Assembly (NCBI GenBank): GCA_025210345.1
Contig: JAOARX010000037.1
Location: 1-64,000 of the forward strand
Source of the DNA: Pelagimonas sp.
GTDB taxonomy: Bacteria > Pseudomonadota > Alphaproteobacteria > Rhodobacterales > Rhodobacteraceae
Direction of reading: 5' to 3'
DNA length: 64,000 nucleotides
Each line of letters starts with the position of its first letter. Within the stretch, counting starts at the first letter, position 1. Positions 5,085 through 11,537 of the stretch are shown in pieces. The position numbers and the translations under genes are program-made. Below the pieces are notes generated by a model. That model did no database searches. It saw only the letters and a list, made by a program, of their open reading frames with translations, and was not told the origin of the DNA.

Positions 5085-5443
5085 ATGAACGACACTGCGG
5101 CGGGTGCATTCAGGCGTCTTATCGTTGAAACAAGGTGGACCGGCTGGGCCGCGCGCCCCCGGGGGTTCAAACCGTGACTTTGAGCGGGATGATTTATCCC
5201 CACTTTAAAGGTGGTTTAAGGCAGGTCGATTTGATGCGCGGGCAGGCGGGGCGGGGGCAGCCGATGATGATGGTCGACGGCATGGGTTGGGTTTGGAACC
5301 GCTGGGTGATCACCGAGGTGCAAGAGACCCGGACGCTGTTCATGGCGGATGGGGCCCCGCGCCAGATCGACTTTTCCATGAAGCTGGAAAGCTATGGCCC
5401 GGATGCGGGCGGCTTGTCTTCGTTTGTCGGGGGGGTGTTTTGA
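5085..5443 (+). pseudogene. Broken P2-like phage tail protein gpU
   Basis: The stretch from a GTG at 5135 reads VDRLGRAPP...VTLSGMIYPHFKGG and continues to MADGAPRQIDFSMKLESYG, the C-terminal two thirds of P2-type gpU, a tail-terminator protein. Immediately upstream in the same frame is SYR followed by TGA where the family has SYRW, so a Trp codon has become a stop. The likely N-terminus (MNDTAAGAFRR from 5085) is in another frame, and about seven residues usually found between GRAP and PGVQTVTLSG are missing. These defects together indicate a pseudogene. It overlaps gpX by one base (TGATG), the original phage operon structure. Confidence 0.7.
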
Positions 5444-5645
5444 TGGCGACCTACCGCACCCTTGAGGGGGACATGATCGATGAGATCTGCAAGGTGCATT
5501 ACGGACGCGAGGATAGGACCGTGGCGGTCTATGAAGCGAACCCCGGCCTGGCGGCGCTTGGTCGGTTTTGCCCTAAGGGATTGTGATCATCTTGCCGGAT
5601 GTTTTGCCCGATTCGGTCAGAACTCCGATCAGGCTGTGGGGGTAA
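5443..5645 (+). pseudogene. Frameshifted P2-like phage tail protein gpX (LysM-like)
   Basis: It starts MATYRTLEGDMIDEICKVHYG and reaches ANPGLAALG, matching the about 67-residue gpX family, which carries a LysM-like fold. The frame then reads RFCPKGL and stops at 5586. In the +1 frame the expected ending continues as GIVIILPDVLPDSVRTPIRLWG and stops at 5645, three bases before gpD. A lost base near 5565 plus a TAA in the shifted frame (VLP-stop-G) explain the break, so an intact gpX cannot be made. Confidence 0.72.
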
Positions 5646-5647
5646 TC

Positions 5648-6622
5648 ATGCACCTTGCCTTCCAGATATTTGCCGATGGTCAGGACGTAACAGGCCGGTT
5701 CCAGGACCGGCTGATCCGCATGACCGTCAAGGACGAAGCGGGCCAGAAATCCGACACGGCCGAGATCGAGCTGGACAATCGCGACACGGCTCTGGCGCTG
5801 CCCCAGACCGGCGCCAAGCTGGATCTGGCTTTGGGGTTGGGCGATGCGCTGGTCTCGATGGGGCGATATGTGGTCGATGAGATCAGCGGCGAGATCGGGG
5901 TTGATACGCTCACGATCAGCGCCAAGGCGGCGGATATGCTGGGCGGCATCCGGGCGCGCAAGACGCGGGCCTGGTCGGGGCAAACGCTGGGGGCGATGGT
6001 CGCTCAGATCGCGGGCGAACATGGGCTGACCCCACGTGTGAGCGCCAGCCTCGCGCAGCATCTCTATCCCTATCTGGCCCAGAACGCCGAAAGCGATCTG
6101 CACTTTCTGACCCGCCTGGCGCGCGATTTGGACGCCGTCGCCAAACCCGCCAGCGGGCATTTGGTCGTGGTCAAACGCGGCGAAGGCAAGGCGGCGGATG
6201 GATCGGACCTGCCGGTGTTCACGGTGCACCGCACTCAGATGAAAAGCGCTTCGTTCCGGGTCACATCGCGCGGCCGGGCCGGTGTCGTTGTGGCTGAGTG
6301 GGGCGAGCGCGCCGCAGGCGTGACCCACAAGGTGCGTGCGGGGCAGGGCGCGCCCGAACTGCATCTGCGCCACCGGTTCGGATCCGCCCCCGAGGCCCGC
6401 CGCGCCGCCCGATCCGCCCTTGAGCGCGGCAACCGCACCAGCGGCACGATCACCGTCAATCTTGGTGGATTTTGGGGGGAGCTGATGGCCGAGGCCAAGG
6501 TCAATATGCAGGGCATCCAGCCCGAGCTTTGCGGCGAATGGCTGATCAACTCGGTCACGCACACTTTGAACGGGACTCTGACCACCAGTTTCGAAGCAGA
6601 ACGCGACAATGAGGAAAAGTAA
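5648..6622 (+). CDS. P2-like phage late control protein gpD (tail hub)
   Basis: 324 residues, intact, with the features of the phage late control D family: an N-terminal beta-rich half (FQIFADGQDVTGRFQDRLI, SDTAEIELDNRD) and QNAESDLHFLTRLARDLDA in the middle, where the family has its gp27/VgrG-like hub fold. In P2 the protein forms the baseplate hub/tail tube cap. It begins 2 bp after the shifted gpX end and is followed at once by the next gene. With gpU and gpX broken and no capsid, terminase or integrase in view, it is a relic unless recruited elsewhere. Confidence 0.82.
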   Translation: MHLAFQIFADGQDVTGRFQDRLIRMTVKDEAGQKSDTAEIELDNRDTALALPQTGAKLDLALGLGDALVSMGRYVVDEISGEIGVDTLTISAKAADMLGGIRARKTRAWSGQTLGAMVAQIAGEHGLTPRVSASLAQHLYPYLAQNAESDLHFLTRLARDLDAVAKPASGHLVVVKRGEGKAADGSDLPVFTVHRTQMKSASFRVTSRGRAGVVVAEWGERAAGVTHKVRAGQGAPELHLRHRFGSAPEARRAARSALERGNRTSGTITVNLGGFWGELMAEAKVNMQGIQPELCGEWLINSVTHTLNGTLTTSFEAERDNEEK

Positions 6623-6623
6623 A

Positions 6624-7247
6624 ATGCGGCCTCCTAAGTTCACCGATCTGATCCCGGCGCAACAGGCGCATTTTGGCAATGGGCTGGGGCCGTATTGGCT
6701 GCCGGATCGGGCGCGCCGGTTCATCACATCTCAGATGTCCTGGTTCTTTGCCGATGCGAGCTGGCGGCACCATGATTTTGGCTATGCGGTCGGCGGGGAC
6801 CGCTGGGACCGCGCGCGCTGTGACAGGAAGTTTTTGGCCGCCATGTGGCGCGATGCGCTCTCGCAGGAACGATTGATTGCAGTGCCGCTGGCGCTGATGC
6901 TGGCGCTTACCTTTTATATCGCGGTGCGGATCGGCGGGCAGTTTGGCTCTTTTGTGTGTCGCGACGGTTACGCCGACATGGATGAGATCCTGGCGACCTA
7001 TGGTTCGGTGCATTGGGTCGGGATGCGGGGCATGGAGCCCGCTTGGTATCAGGCACGGCTTGCCAGCGGCAAAGTCGATTTGCGCCAAAGCTGGGACGAG
7101 GCAGAGTGGCTTTTGTGGGAAGAAGATCGCGGCCCGGACACGCCCCTGTTGTTCAAAACCGGCGAACCCGACCTGGCCCGCGCGATCCCCTTGGTTGAGG
7201 CGTGGCTGCGTAAGGAGGCTTATGTGATGGGGGCGCTGGATGGCTGA
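6624..7247 (+). CDS. Phage-associated membrane protein with phospholipase A2-like HDFGY motif
   Basis: 207 residues, intact; ATG 6624 has GAGG nine bases upstream and directly follows the gpD stop. Residues 45-75 read SWRHHDFGYAVGG and then RARCDRKF, closely resembling the catalytic helix of bacterial/fungal secreted phospholipase A2 (RHDFGY followed by R..D..F), with the His-Asp pair at 50-51. Residues 84-104 (RLIAVPLALMLALTFYIAV) are a membrane segment, and about 100 polar residues follow that I do not recognise. The cysteine usually preceding the catalytic His is Ser here. A lysis or membrane-active role for a tail module is inference. Confidence 0.5.
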   Translation: MRPPKFTDLIPAQQAHFGNGLGPYWLPDRARRFITSQMSWFFADASWRHHDFGYAVGGDRWDRARCDRKFLAAMWRDALSQERLIAVPLALMLALTFYIAVRIGGQFGSFVCRDGYADMDEILATYGSVHWVGMRGMEPAWYQARLASGKVDLRQSWDEAEWLLWEEDRGPDTPLLFKTGEPDLARAIPLVEAWLRKEAYVMGALDG

Positions 7248-7378: not shown

Positions 7379-7876
7379 ATGTTCGATAGTCAAGATCATG
7401 GGAACGGTGCCGAGTTAATGACCATTGGTTACGAAGGCTCGACAATTAGCGACTTCGTTGCAACGCTCCGTGCAGCGGGTGTTCAGTGCTTAGTCGACGT
7501 GCGAGAGTTGCCGCTATCGAGAAAGAAAGGCTTTTCAAAGAATGCTTTGCGTGAAGCCTTGTCGGACGCAGGCATTAGATATGAGCATTTCAAAAAACTG
7601 GGTGACCCGAAACCAGGACGAGATGCAGCCAGAGCCGGTGATTATGCAACATTCCGCAAGATATTTAGTGAACATTTAGACACCGAAGATGCACAGTTGG
7701 CGCTTGATAGCGTCACGCCGATTGTTCTAAATGGTGGCGCGTGTCTGCTATGTTTTGAACGCAGTCACAAAGAATGTCATCGAAGCATGGTGGCAAACGA
7801 ATTGATTGAACGGACTGGCGTCAAAGTCAGGCATATTGGAGTGCGGCAAGGAATTGCAGGAGAACTCGTCGGATAA
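7379..7876 (+). CDS. DUF488 domain protein
   Basis: 165 residues, recognisable as DUF488 by the N-terminal MTIGYEGSTISDFVATLRA, the LVDVRELPLSRKKGFSK motif and the Cys/His box LLCFERSHKECHRSMVANEL. The family is widespread; its biochemical function is not established to my knowledge. The following gene overlaps its end, so the two form a transcriptional unit. Codon use and base composition are clearly more AT-rich than the dcw genes downstream, consistent with recent transfer. M1 at 7379 adds a short polar tail before the domain; the ATG at 7418 (MTIGYEG) is an alternative start. Confidence 0.82.
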   Translation: MFDSQDHGNGAELMTIGYEGSTISDFVATLRAAGVQCLVDVRELPLSRKKGFSKNALREALSDAGIRYEHFKKLGDPKPGRDAARAGDYATFRKIFSEHLDTEDAQLALDSVTPIVLNGGACLLCFERSHKECHRSMVANELIERTGVKVRHIGVRQGIAGELVG

Positions 7877-8630
7877 ATCTGGAGAAACTGAAGCGATCAT
7901 TTTGATTAAGGCTACTCCAGTCATCGGGACAAAGCATGGGGAAACCGTTTGTTGCGCGGGTGTCGATCTTTATGGCAACTGGCTTCGCATGTACCCCGTT
8001 TCATTCCGGGTCTTAGATGAAGGCAAAAAGTTCAAACGATGGGATCGAGTTAAATTTCGCTGGAGGCGTCCGTCTGAGGATGCGCGCCGAGAAAGCAGGC
8101 ATGTCGACAGCCAAAGCTTGGAAATCGTTGGACGGATGAAGGCTGGTGAGAAGGCGAGGTTCCTTGACCAGCTTATTGTAACGAGTTTGAATAAACAGTT
8201 TGAAGGTGGGCGAAGTTTAGCACTTCTGAAGCCTGAAATTCTTGATTTCAAGATTGAGAAGAAGAGCGCAGAGGCGCTCGCTGAAGAGCAGGCAAAAATC
8301 GATTTATTCCACGAACAGGGCGACATGTTTATCCCTCGCCCCGCGATTCCACAGAGGGCTTGCCCGTTTAGCTTTAAGTATCGCTATCGGACAGATGACG
8401 GGCTTCGATTGGGAACCTGCCAAGATTGGGAGACCGAAGCCACCTTCTTTAAGTGGCGCCGAGAGTATGGTGAGGTCGGTGCTCTACAGCACATGAAAAC
8501 GCAATTTGGCGATGTCCTTCCTGAGCGGGGTCTCTACTTCGCTATGGGAACACACTCACGCTGGCAGGAAACATGGCTGATTAATGGTCTGGTCCAACTG
8601 AAGCAGAGTGCGCAAGCTAGCCTGCTTTGA
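7806..8630 (+). CDS. Uncharacterised DUF488-partner protein
   Basis: 274 residues from a TTG at 7806 that overlaps the DUF488 gene by 71 bases. Conserved sequence seems to begin around ILIKATPVIG, so the true start may be further in (for example TTG 7902); no site has a convincing ribosome signal. The N-terminal part has CCAGVDLYGNWLRMYPVSFR, and the C-terminal part has CPFSFKYRYR, CQDWETEATFFKWRREYG and GLYFAMGTHSRWQETWLING. I recall similar uncharacterised bacterial proteins with this two-part pattern, some beside DUF488, but know no function. No membrane segment or signal peptide. Composition is AT-rich like its partner. Confidence 0.7.
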   Translation: MNGLASKSGILECGKELQENSSDKSGETEAIILIKATPVIGTKHGETVCCAGVDLYGNWLRMYPVSFRVLDEGKKFKRWDRVKFRWRRPSEDARRESRHVDSQSLEIVGRMKAGEKARFLDQLIVTSLNKQFEGGRSLALLKPEILDFKIEKKSAEALAEEQAKIDLFHEQGDMFIPRPAIPQRACPFSFKYRYRTDDGLRLGTCQDWETEATFFKWRREYGEVGALQHMKTQFGDVLPERGLYFAMGTHSRWQETWLINGLVQLKQSAQASLL

Positions 8631-8697
8631 GATCAGCCCTAGAGGTGCTTCTGAAATCTGCACGGCTCTTCAGTGTTCGATTGGAGCGATTGGGGCA

Positions 8698-8919
8698 TTA
8701 AATGACCCGCGCCCCGAGGTCGTTCTAAAGACTCAGACCTGATGGTCGTAGTTCGGGCCGCTCCGTTCCATCCGATCCCAAAATCTCTTCGCGGCGGGCC
8801 GCGACATCATAGACAAGAACTTGATGTATGCGAAGGGCCTTCAAGACCCATTTAAAGACCCGCGCCCCGATGGCGTTTTAAACACTCAGGCCTGAAGGTC
8901 GCGCGTCAGACCGCTGCGG
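8698..8919. repeat. Pair of diverged direct repeats, about 68 bp, 153 bp apart
   Basis: Copy A (about 8698-8766) and copy B (about 8851-8919) share GACCCGCGCCCCGA, then CGTT-TAAA-ACTCAG-CCTGA-GGTCG, and end near CCGCT-CG. By eye they agree at roughly three quarters of positions. A short AAAATCTCTT also recurs after each copy (near 8780 and 8922). Confidence 0.65.
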
Positions 8920-8946
8920 GGCAAAATCTCTTTGCTGTAATAAGTT

Positions 8947-9018
8947 GTGTAATTCACTGCAATAAGTCGCGTCACGCTACAAAAGTCGTGTAATTCACTG
9001 CAATAAGTCACGTCACGC
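8947..9018. repeat. 41-bp-period tandem repeat, two copies plus a partial
   Basis: GTGTAATTCACTGCAATAAG begins at 8947 and again at 8988; both copies continue as TCRCGTCACGC and differ at one base over 31. A third partial unit, CTGTAATAAGTTG, precedes them at about 8935. Spacing and copy number do not fit CRISPR. Confidence 0.75.
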
Positions 9019-9035
9019 GACTGTTGCGTTGAATA

Positions 9036-9260
9036 TGGGAATGTATGGGACGTAACCCGCTTTTTGCCCTTGGGGGTGGGAGGTGGGTCATCAAATTGAC
9101 GGTTTGGCGCAGGCTGGCATGTTGACGGTGCGAATTTTGGATGATTCGCTTGCCGAGAGCTGCTAGATCCGGTGGGAAATGATGGGCGCCTGCGCTGAGC
9201 AACCTGCTTCAACCGGAAAATCTGGGAAAATGTGGGAAAAAATTCAGTGTAAGGGTGGGC
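9036..9260 (+). promoter_or_regulatory. MraZ operator boxes (TGGGN-N5-TGGGN), forward clusters
   Basis: Exact 10-bp-period pairs lie at 9036-9050 (TGGGA-atgta-TGGGA), 9173-9187 (TGGGA-aatga-TGGGC) and 9223-9237 (TGGGA-aaatg-TGGGA), with a further TGGGC at 9256. Direct TGGGN repeats separated by 5 bp are the known E. coli MraZ binding pattern, so autoregulation of the dcw transcript from here is likely. Confidence 0.65.
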
Positions 9261-9373
9261 GCTATATCTTGTGTTTGAGATTTTAGTTTCTGCTGGATTT
9301 TCGGCGAATGGGTAAAAATTCCCTTAATATTCTGCGCTTGCGAGAGGTTCTTCATGTACGCTCACCCCAAAAT

Positions 9374-9408
9374 TCCCACAAAAAACTGTTGCGTCCCATC
9401 AATTCCCA
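9374..9408 (-). promoter_or_regulatory. MraZ operator boxes, reverse orientation
   Basis: TCCCA occurs at 9374, 9394 and 9404, i.e. in register at 20 and 10 bp, giving TGGGA-attga-TGGGA plus a third box with one unit skipped when read on the minus strand. This is the cluster nearest to mraZ, about 270 bp upstream of its start. Confidence 0.55.
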
Positions 9409-9674
9409 TGGCATCCATAGTTCACACGATGAGTTAAGCGGTTAGGGGCAGCAAGACCCCGAAAACGAACTCATAAAAATAATAGAGCAGGTTTCATACA
9501 GGCGCCGCGCTCATCGTGAACAAGAGGATCCGGCGCGCGGGCGAGCAGACATCCCCCCAGGTGGCGCGCGCAGTCGGAGACACCCGCACAGCGGGACAGG
9601 CGGCGGGTTGATCAGTGGCAGCAGATCGACCCGCCCCTTTTCATTTCACGGGGGCGAACAGAGGGGCCAGGGCA

Positions 9675-10187: not shown

Positions 10188-11173
10188 TGAGTGCCGGGCC
10201 TGACAGCGCGCCCCATATTCCGGTTTTGTTGGGCGCAATTTTGCGCCAGGTGGGTGAGGTGCAGGGCACGTGGTTGGATGGCACCATGGGGGCAGGCGGC
10301 TATAGCCGTGCGTTCCTGGAGGCCGGGGCCACGCATCTGGTTTGCGTTGATCAGGATCCGCTGGCCCACGATATGGCGCTGGATTGGGTGGGCGATTACG
10401 CGGGTCGTGTGACCTTGGTCGAAGCCAACTTTCAGGATATGGACCAATTCGCTAGTGACCTTGATGGGGTCGTGTTGGATCTGGGCGTGTCGTCGATGCA
10501 GCTGGATCAGGCGGACCGCGGATTTTCCTTTATGCGTGATGGGCCATTGGACATGCGCATGTCGCAAGACGGCCCCTCGGCGGCGGACATCGTCAACACC
10601 TACTCCGAAACCGAGATCGCCGACATTCTGTACAACTACGGCGAAGAGCGTCAGTCCAGGCGGATCGCCCGCAAGATCGTCGAAGTCCGCAAGGGACAAC
10701 CCTTTGAAACGACTCTGCAATTGGTCGAGGTGATCGAAAGCTGCCTGCCGCGTTCCAAACCCGGTCAGGCGCATCCCGCGACCCGCAGCTTTCAAGGGTT
10801 GCGCATTGCGGTGAACGATGAATATGGCGCGCTGTGGCGGGGCTTGATGGCCGCTGAGCGGGCGTTGAAACCCGGCGGGTTGCTGGTGGTCGTGACCTTC
10901 CATTCCATCGAAGACCGCATGGTCAAACGCTTTTTCCAGGCCCATGGCGACAAGAAAACCCGCGTCAATCGCTATGCCTCTGAGGCACCGGTTGAAACGG
11001 ATGCGCCGTTTCAGGTCCTGACACGCAAGGCGATTGGACCGGATGCCAAAGAGTTGGCGCGCAATCCGCGGGCGCGCTCGGCCAAATTGCGGGTCGGGCG
11101 GCGCACCACGGCCCCCGCGCGCGACATCGAAGCGAGCGATTTGTCGATGCCCATGATCGAAAACAGGAGCTGA
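10187..11173 (+). CDS. rsmH: 16S rRNA (cytosine1402-N4)-methyltransferase RsmH
   Basis: 328 residues, full length. The SAM site [19 protein letters not shown] near the N-terminus, [20 protein letters not shown] with the family's Asp, and the C-terminal [16 protein letters not shown] motif identify RsmH (MraW). It N4-methylates C1402 in the ribosomal P site. It overlaps mraZ by one base and is followed 1 bp later by ftsL, the canonical order of dcw clusters. Confidence 0.96.
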
Positions 11174-11174
11174 C

Positions 11175-11537
11175 ATGCGCAGTTTTCTTTTCATTCTGGC
11201 AACCCTGAGCGTGATCGGATCCGGCTATTGGGCCTATCATGAAAACTATGAAACGCAGGCCGAACTGGATCGGGTTGATGATCTGCGCCGCGACATTGGC
11301 AACAGCCGTGAACGCCTGGCGATTTTGCAGGCGGAATGGGCTTATCTAAACCGTCCTGACCGGTTGCGGGATCTGGCAGAACTAAACTTTGAGCGGTTGG
11401 GCCTGTTGCCCCTGCGGCCCGAACAATTTGGCCGCGTGGACCAGGTGGCCTATCCGTTGCTGCTTCAGGATCTTGAAATCTCAAAGCCGGTGGCCGTGAT
11501 CAGTGTTGGAACAACCGAAGCGGGAGTTAGCGAATGA
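11175..11537 (+). CDS. ftsL: Cell division protein FtsL
   Basis: 120 residues: a short cytosolic N-terminus, one membrane segment (SFLFILATLSVIGSGYWAYH, about 3-22) and a periplasmic heptad-containing coiled coil (AELDRVDDLRRDIGNSRERLAIL) ending in the family's LAILQAEWAYLNRPDRLRDL stretch. FtsL joins FtsB and FtsQ in activating FtsWI at the septum. Identity rests on this pattern and on its position between rsmH and ftsI. It overlaps ftsI by 4 bases (ATGA). Confidence 0.9.
   Translation: MRSFLFILATLSVIGSGYWAYHENYETQAELDRVDDLRRDIGNSRERLAILQAEWAYLNRPDRLRDLAELNFERLGLLPLRPEQFGRVDQVAYPLLLQDLEISKPVAVISVGTTEAGVSE

Follow-up and report, generated by a model that had tools for sequence, protein, structure and literature searches.

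A DUF488 gene and its predicted tandem OB-fold partner, a probable sliding-clamp binder, form a mobile pair within the phage-defence candidate PDC-M19

Background

PDC-M19 is listed in PADLOC-DB 2.0 among the phage-defence candidates (PDC), a catalogue of candidate systems (PMC10855318), and is recognized by two adjacent genes whose products match the PDC-M19A and PDC-M19B HMMs. PADLOC gives no mechanism for it, and a literature search found no paper on PDC-M19 by name. For the DUF488 family, the same kind of search found no source paper for the Pfam label 'active' DUF488-N3; an archaeal ParB-fold DUF488-HTH fusion is reported to bind CTP (PMC12704722). Two further groups of described proteins are relevant here because they act on the beta sliding clamp. 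In the type VI toxin-antitoxin (TA) system SocAB of Caulobacter, the protein SocB binds the clamp (DnaN) and inhibits replication (PMC5812544). Clamp-binding proteins such as Pol III alpha and Pol IV carry motifs of the consensus QL(S/D)LF in C-terminal tails or loops, with QADMF as the internal motif of Pol III alpha (PMC11139829), and transposases carry motifs of this type at the C-terminus (PMC4549789).

Here we examine two genes, A and B, in a 64,000-nucleotide stretch of a Pelagimonas sp. contig (the window). The original prediction, made from the sequence of the window, took them for the best candidate there for an undescribed system. This part of the prediction fails, since A matches PDC-M19A (E 2e-31), B matches PDC-M19B (E 1.6e-35, residues 30-273) and the two genes are adjacent, so that the locus belongs to a candidate that is already listed. 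A and B are a real, mobile and tightly linked pair within PDC-M19. What our analysis adds is the predicted dual-OB fold of B together with two clamp-binding-like motifs, which point to probable docking on the sliding clamp, and the occurrence of a ParB-DUF488 partner; we found no papers linking any of the three to the PDC-M19 pair.

Results

The two overlapping genes of the original prediction were both recovered as open frames (Table 1), which share 71 nt. There is no ATG near the start of B; TTG codons occur at 7806, 7836 and 7854 (within A) and at 7902, and homology of B to most of its relatives starts at about 7878-7890, so the true coding overlap of the two genes is uncertain. The pair had also been described as more AT-rich than its flanks, and it is: the GC content of the A-B stretch is 49.8%, whereas the window averages 60.6% (sd 2.7%), the stretch sits within the lowest-GC part of the window, and GC3 is 0.44 in A and 0.52 in B compared with 0.73-0.75 in the neighbouring genes. 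Purifying selection seems to act on both genes, with pN/pS values of about 0.24-0.32 in comparisons with two relatives in which synonymous sites are saturated. Chance open reading frames are ruled out by this selection, by the conserved domain of A and by conservation across the family.

Table 1. Positions in the window of the gene pair, its motifs and the neighbouring features
Feature	Position	Strand	Description or basis
Prophage tail remnant	5135-7247	+	Pfam and phrog matches (among them phrog_52, tail, E 3.7e-105), alignment to congener
Tail-like ORF	5135-5443	+	Alignment to congener
GPD-like baseplate hub	5480-6622	+	Pfam Phage_GPD, E 3.3e-14
phrog_6098 protein	6609-7247	+	phrog_6098, E 5.9e-8
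Gene A	7379-7876	+	ATG start, 165 aa; DUF488, PDC-M19A
Gene B	7806-8630	+	Open frame of at most 274 aa; PDC-M19B; predicted tandem OB-fold
QGDMF, clamp-binding-like motif	8316-8330	+	Frame residues 171-175; linker between folded parts, low pLDDT
QASLL, clamp-binding-like motif	8613-8627	+	Frame residues 270-274; C-terminus, pLDDT <50
Direct repeats	8696-9021	.	70 nt at 8696/8849; 39 nt at 8942/8983; non-coding, between pair and mraZ

The placement of the pair between a decayed phage tail and the dcw cluster, as first noted, agrees with what we found on both sides. To the left lies a tail remnant, of which positions 5186-7178 can be aligned (72%) with the more complete tail operon of a congener, and to the right lie an mraZ-like gene and rsmH, both named from sequence. 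In a congener (G756, locus L166) the space that separates the tail genes from mraZ carries two unrelated genes and no A-B, which makes it a variable cargo slot. The two genes (L166, 9636-11079) encode a protein of 309 aa, for which neither a Pfam nor a PADLOC family match was found, and one of 163 aa with hydrophobic, membrane-like stretches, for which Pfam hits were at chance level only; since this cargo of the congener has no PADLOC family and no convincing Pfam match, we rejected it as a known defence system. Insertion of the pair at a tRNA gene was likewise rejected, because a search of the window found no tRNA.

Between the pair and mraZ lies nearly 1 kb of non-coding DNA (8631-9610) that is partly conserved in the congener, and it contains two direct repeats (Table 1), in line with the repeat-laden non-coding DNA first noted behind the pair. 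Positions 8922-8981 are conserved at 85% at the matching place in the congener, which lacks the pair. At least that part of the repeat region therefore belongs to the mraZ side, and the repeats are, at least in part, no component of an A-B module.

The suggestion that the two proteins act together is borne out at the level of functional linkage between their genes. A adjoins B in 96 of 101 loci, a partly redundant set that includes copies of the window, and does so in three arrangements (the order is A then B at 67 loci and B then A at 3, and at 26 the two genes converge), so adjacency is far from rare. The loci without an adjoining A are one in which A was not detectable (L006), a Sulfolobus plasmid (L020), a fragment of B surrounded by insertion sequences (L028) and two at which the contig ends (L085 and L088). 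No natural fusion of A and B occurs among the 101 loci. Seen from B, then, the pairing is nearly obligate. Seen from A, it follows sequence similarity: among 30 homologues of A taken from a class survey, B was present beside nine of the ten that score at least 177 bits and none of the 20 that score lower. By this measure the A proteins that are paired with B are a sharply bounded subfamily, and DUF488 as a whole is wider.

The pair spans several phyla but is patchily distributed: of 397 genomes from the family of the window, 15 carry B, as do 10 of 399 from the phylum. This is not the distribution of a housekeeping gene, and the absence of the pair from the congener's site also speaks against A and B as housekeeping genes linked to dcw. 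The mobile cargo module of the original prediction is supported: B is found on 25 plasmid records, in 62 IMG/VR contigs and in Gordonia phages, where it adjoins an annotated immunity repressor. The viral contigs yielded no further members of archaeal or cyanobacterial type. Several relatives of B contain stops or frameshifts (L015, L089, L101 and G426:C9), as might be expected of cargo with a fast turnover.

The DUF488 assignment made at the outset for A is confirmed by a match to PF04343 (E 2.4e-30; 106.1 bits against a curated cut-off of 22.2). An AlphaFold (AF2) model of A has a Rossmann-like fold with a mean pLDDT of 91. The conserved set consists of an Asp/Arg pair plus Cys-x-Glu...Cys-His-Arg, and the invariant residues, which include D40, R42, C125, E127, C133, H134 and R135, map at or just past the ends of predicted strands. 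Strand ends are the usual position of the active site in folds of the Rossmann type. A is probably an enzyme and would act on nucleic acid or nucleotides. Foldseek searches with A gave weak Rossmann-type hits only, and no solved structure related to A or B by sequence was found.

Some relatives of A carry additional domains. In two archaeal plasmids (Saccharolobus pBEU9E1 and Haloquadratum PL100) B is adjoined by a ParB-HTH-DUF488 fusion, the HTH of which was assigned from the ParB architecture and not by a family search. Other A proteins are fused to an XRE-type HTH, to HTH_59 or to an unnamed N-terminal domain of about 150 aa. The unnamed domain (YDFVP..YG.YSF) precedes DUF488 in L065, L073, L083 and L099, and in L083 the extra N-terminal domain is weakly Panacea-like (E 0.0048).

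B has no family match in Pfam or NCBIfam; it matches phrog_25907 (E 5.7e-30). The two-part pattern that had been pointed out in B is conserved, with 15 invariant columns in an alignment of 63 relatives. An AF2 model built from 63 sequences has a mean pLDDT of 85.8 and shows two folded parts; confidence drops at residues of about 141-160 and 245-250 of the model. The best Foldseek matches in the PDB were to CST, Teb1, RPA, telomere-end-binding proteins and HIN domains; those ranked highest are tandem OB proteins, at E values from 5e-5 to 1e-3 and weaker and at low TM-scores (0.22-0.36). A search of a viral structure library returned baculovirus LEF-3. All of these are tandem OB-fold DNA-binding proteins. 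B is accordingly predicted, from its model, to be a tandem OB-fold protein of the RPA, CST, POT1 and HIN kind, and it probably binds single-strand or fork DNA. The predicted tandem OB architecture would be shared with the dual OB-containing domain DuOB (PF22557). The B protein of the window has no match to DuOB at E 1, and two distant relatives match it weakly (E 0.002; 18.6-18.7 bits, below the curated cut-off of 27). In plasmids of Sulfolobales, the gene after B encodes a conserved protein (L020, 8840-9346; L121, 4864-5355) with a KTLF or TKLF ending, which on visual inspection resembles PD-(D/E)XK proteins.

Two short motifs in B resemble the clamp-binding consensus. QGDMF sits in the linker and QASLL in the C-terminal tail, both of which are predicted to be disordered. 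A linker motif of the form Q..[LMIF][FLIM] is present in 91 of 98 unique complete relatives (about 5% expected by chance), and the strict C-terminal motif Q..[LMI][FLI] occurs within the last nine residues in 67 of the 98 (0.7% by chance), whereas such an ending was found in none of 255 neighbouring proteins. Because the relatives share descent, these counts are not independent, and when the relatives were thinned the strict C-terminal motif remained in 10 of 25 at 50% identity and in 5 of 13 at 40%, with near variants in several others. The form QADMF was found in two relatives of B as well; the DnaE of the host itself has QVSLF. Both motifs are missing in two members from Sulfolobales. The tails of two Sulfolobales proteins ([N]V[KS][LF]D[DK]FI) look PIP-like, but we rejected replacement by an archaeal PCNA-box as too weak and based on too few sequences. 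B resembles Pol III alpha, Pol IV and clamp-binding transposases in having QL(S/D)LF-type motifs that are internal or C-terminal but, in contrast to these, it has no polymerase or transposase domain and its clamp binding is putative. On the strength of the motifs, docking of B on the beta sliding clamp (DnaN) is probable.

Genes of restriction-modification and defence systems adjoin the pair at some loci. In three genera the pair is followed by type III Mod and Res genes; in L074 a homologous Mod-Res pair is divergent from B, and in L063 the gene before B encodes a ResIII-domain protein. PDC-S28 adjoins the pair in L005, an Mrr-like protein lies near it in a Streptomyces plasmid, and DISARM-type proteins occur among the pooled neighbours of ten chromosomal loci. 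Such neighbours are found at a minority of loci and are counted here without a control rate, so that this gene context gives circumstantial evidence of a stress or defence role. Upstream of B in L068 (3274-5863) stand an unnamed gene and its partner, an AAA_5 NTPase gene that on visual inspection resembles McrB; the two may be a defence pair, for example one of type IV restriction. In L170 a SocA_Panacea gene (10770-11297, E 4.5e-15) is divergent from A-B.

Discussion

As a tentative explanation, which we consider somewhat short of an even chance of being right, we propose that A and B form a conflict system of mobile elements in which B tethers A to clamp-loaded, replicating DNA. Prophages, plasmids and islands would carry the pair as their cargo. 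Its tandem OB protein B would dock on the beta clamp of the host by means of the linker motif and the C-terminal motif, and would thereby bring A, a Rossmann-fold DUF488 protein and putative enzyme on nucleic acid or nucleotides, to DNA that is clamp-loaded and actively replicating. There the pair might interfere with competing replicons, for example a superinfecting phage or plasmid. A more specific form of the idea, in which PDC-M19 acts at replication forks, with a clamp-anchored dual-OB protein delivering a DUF488 enzyme to invader DNA and a ParB-fused version in archaea, is conceivable but rather doubtful. The proposal is weakened by the shortness and degeneracy of clamp motifs and by the many copies in phage structural operons, which would fit a role in the service of the phage; nor did we find a solved DUF488 relative that supports catalysis.

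Such a role is the first alternative to be weighed. The pair might be an accessory of replication, repair or DNA modification that helps its phage or plasmid to copy, modify or protect new DNA, for instance together with an adjacent methyltransferase. DNA methyltransferases do lie within 4 kb of the pair in 30 of 98 loci, mostly as ParB-fold proteins directly upstream in alphaproteobacterial phages; the pair is also found near terminase genes, between structural genes of Mu-like phages and after tail genes, and replication and repair proteins typically have clamp motifs (PMC11139829). However, the link to methyltransferases comes mainly from one phage lineage and is missing from many copies on chromosomes and plasmids, and the pair is patchily present across related hosts. 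We therefore regard an accessory role as unlikely, though it deserves some weight.

A TA system aimed at the clamp, as in SocAB, is a live reading because SocB arrests replication through DnaN and one relative of the pair has a SocA/Panacea gene next to it. B would then block replication on the beta clamp and A would be its antitoxin or regulator, which seems to us improbable; that defence or stabilisation of the element would come from replication arrest is improbable to the same degree. The Panacea-like N-terminus of one A protein, the XRE-HTH, HTH_59 or ParB-HTH parts of others, as often seen in antitoxins, and the small, overlapping genes are all in keeping with a TA system. Yet the antitoxin in SocAB is SocA/Panacea, whereas A in the window is DUF488 only, with no extra domain, and its Rossmann fold with many conserved polar residues is unlike typical antitoxins. 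B, for its part, is a large, conserved, two-domain protein and no bare clamp peptide, and the convergent arrangement in 26 loci would be unusual for a TA operon.

Quite unlikely, finally, is defence by the pair without the clamp, the Q..LF motifs then having a structural role or being shared by descent through coincidence: the fall in motif counts on thinning and the two Sulfolobales members that lack the motifs would agree with it, but the motifs fall in segments that are predicted to be disordered, are kept at the ends of tails that differ in length and sequence, and end none of the neighbouring proteins.

Conclusions

DUF488 proteins occur in many bacteria and archaea, and we found no established function for them. 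If B binds the clamp as our preferred reading of a clamp-tethered conflict system supposes, its two glutamines would provide a mutable handle both on DUF488 and on the candidate PDC-M19, and tethering at the replication fork would be a way for mobile elements to hit their competitors.
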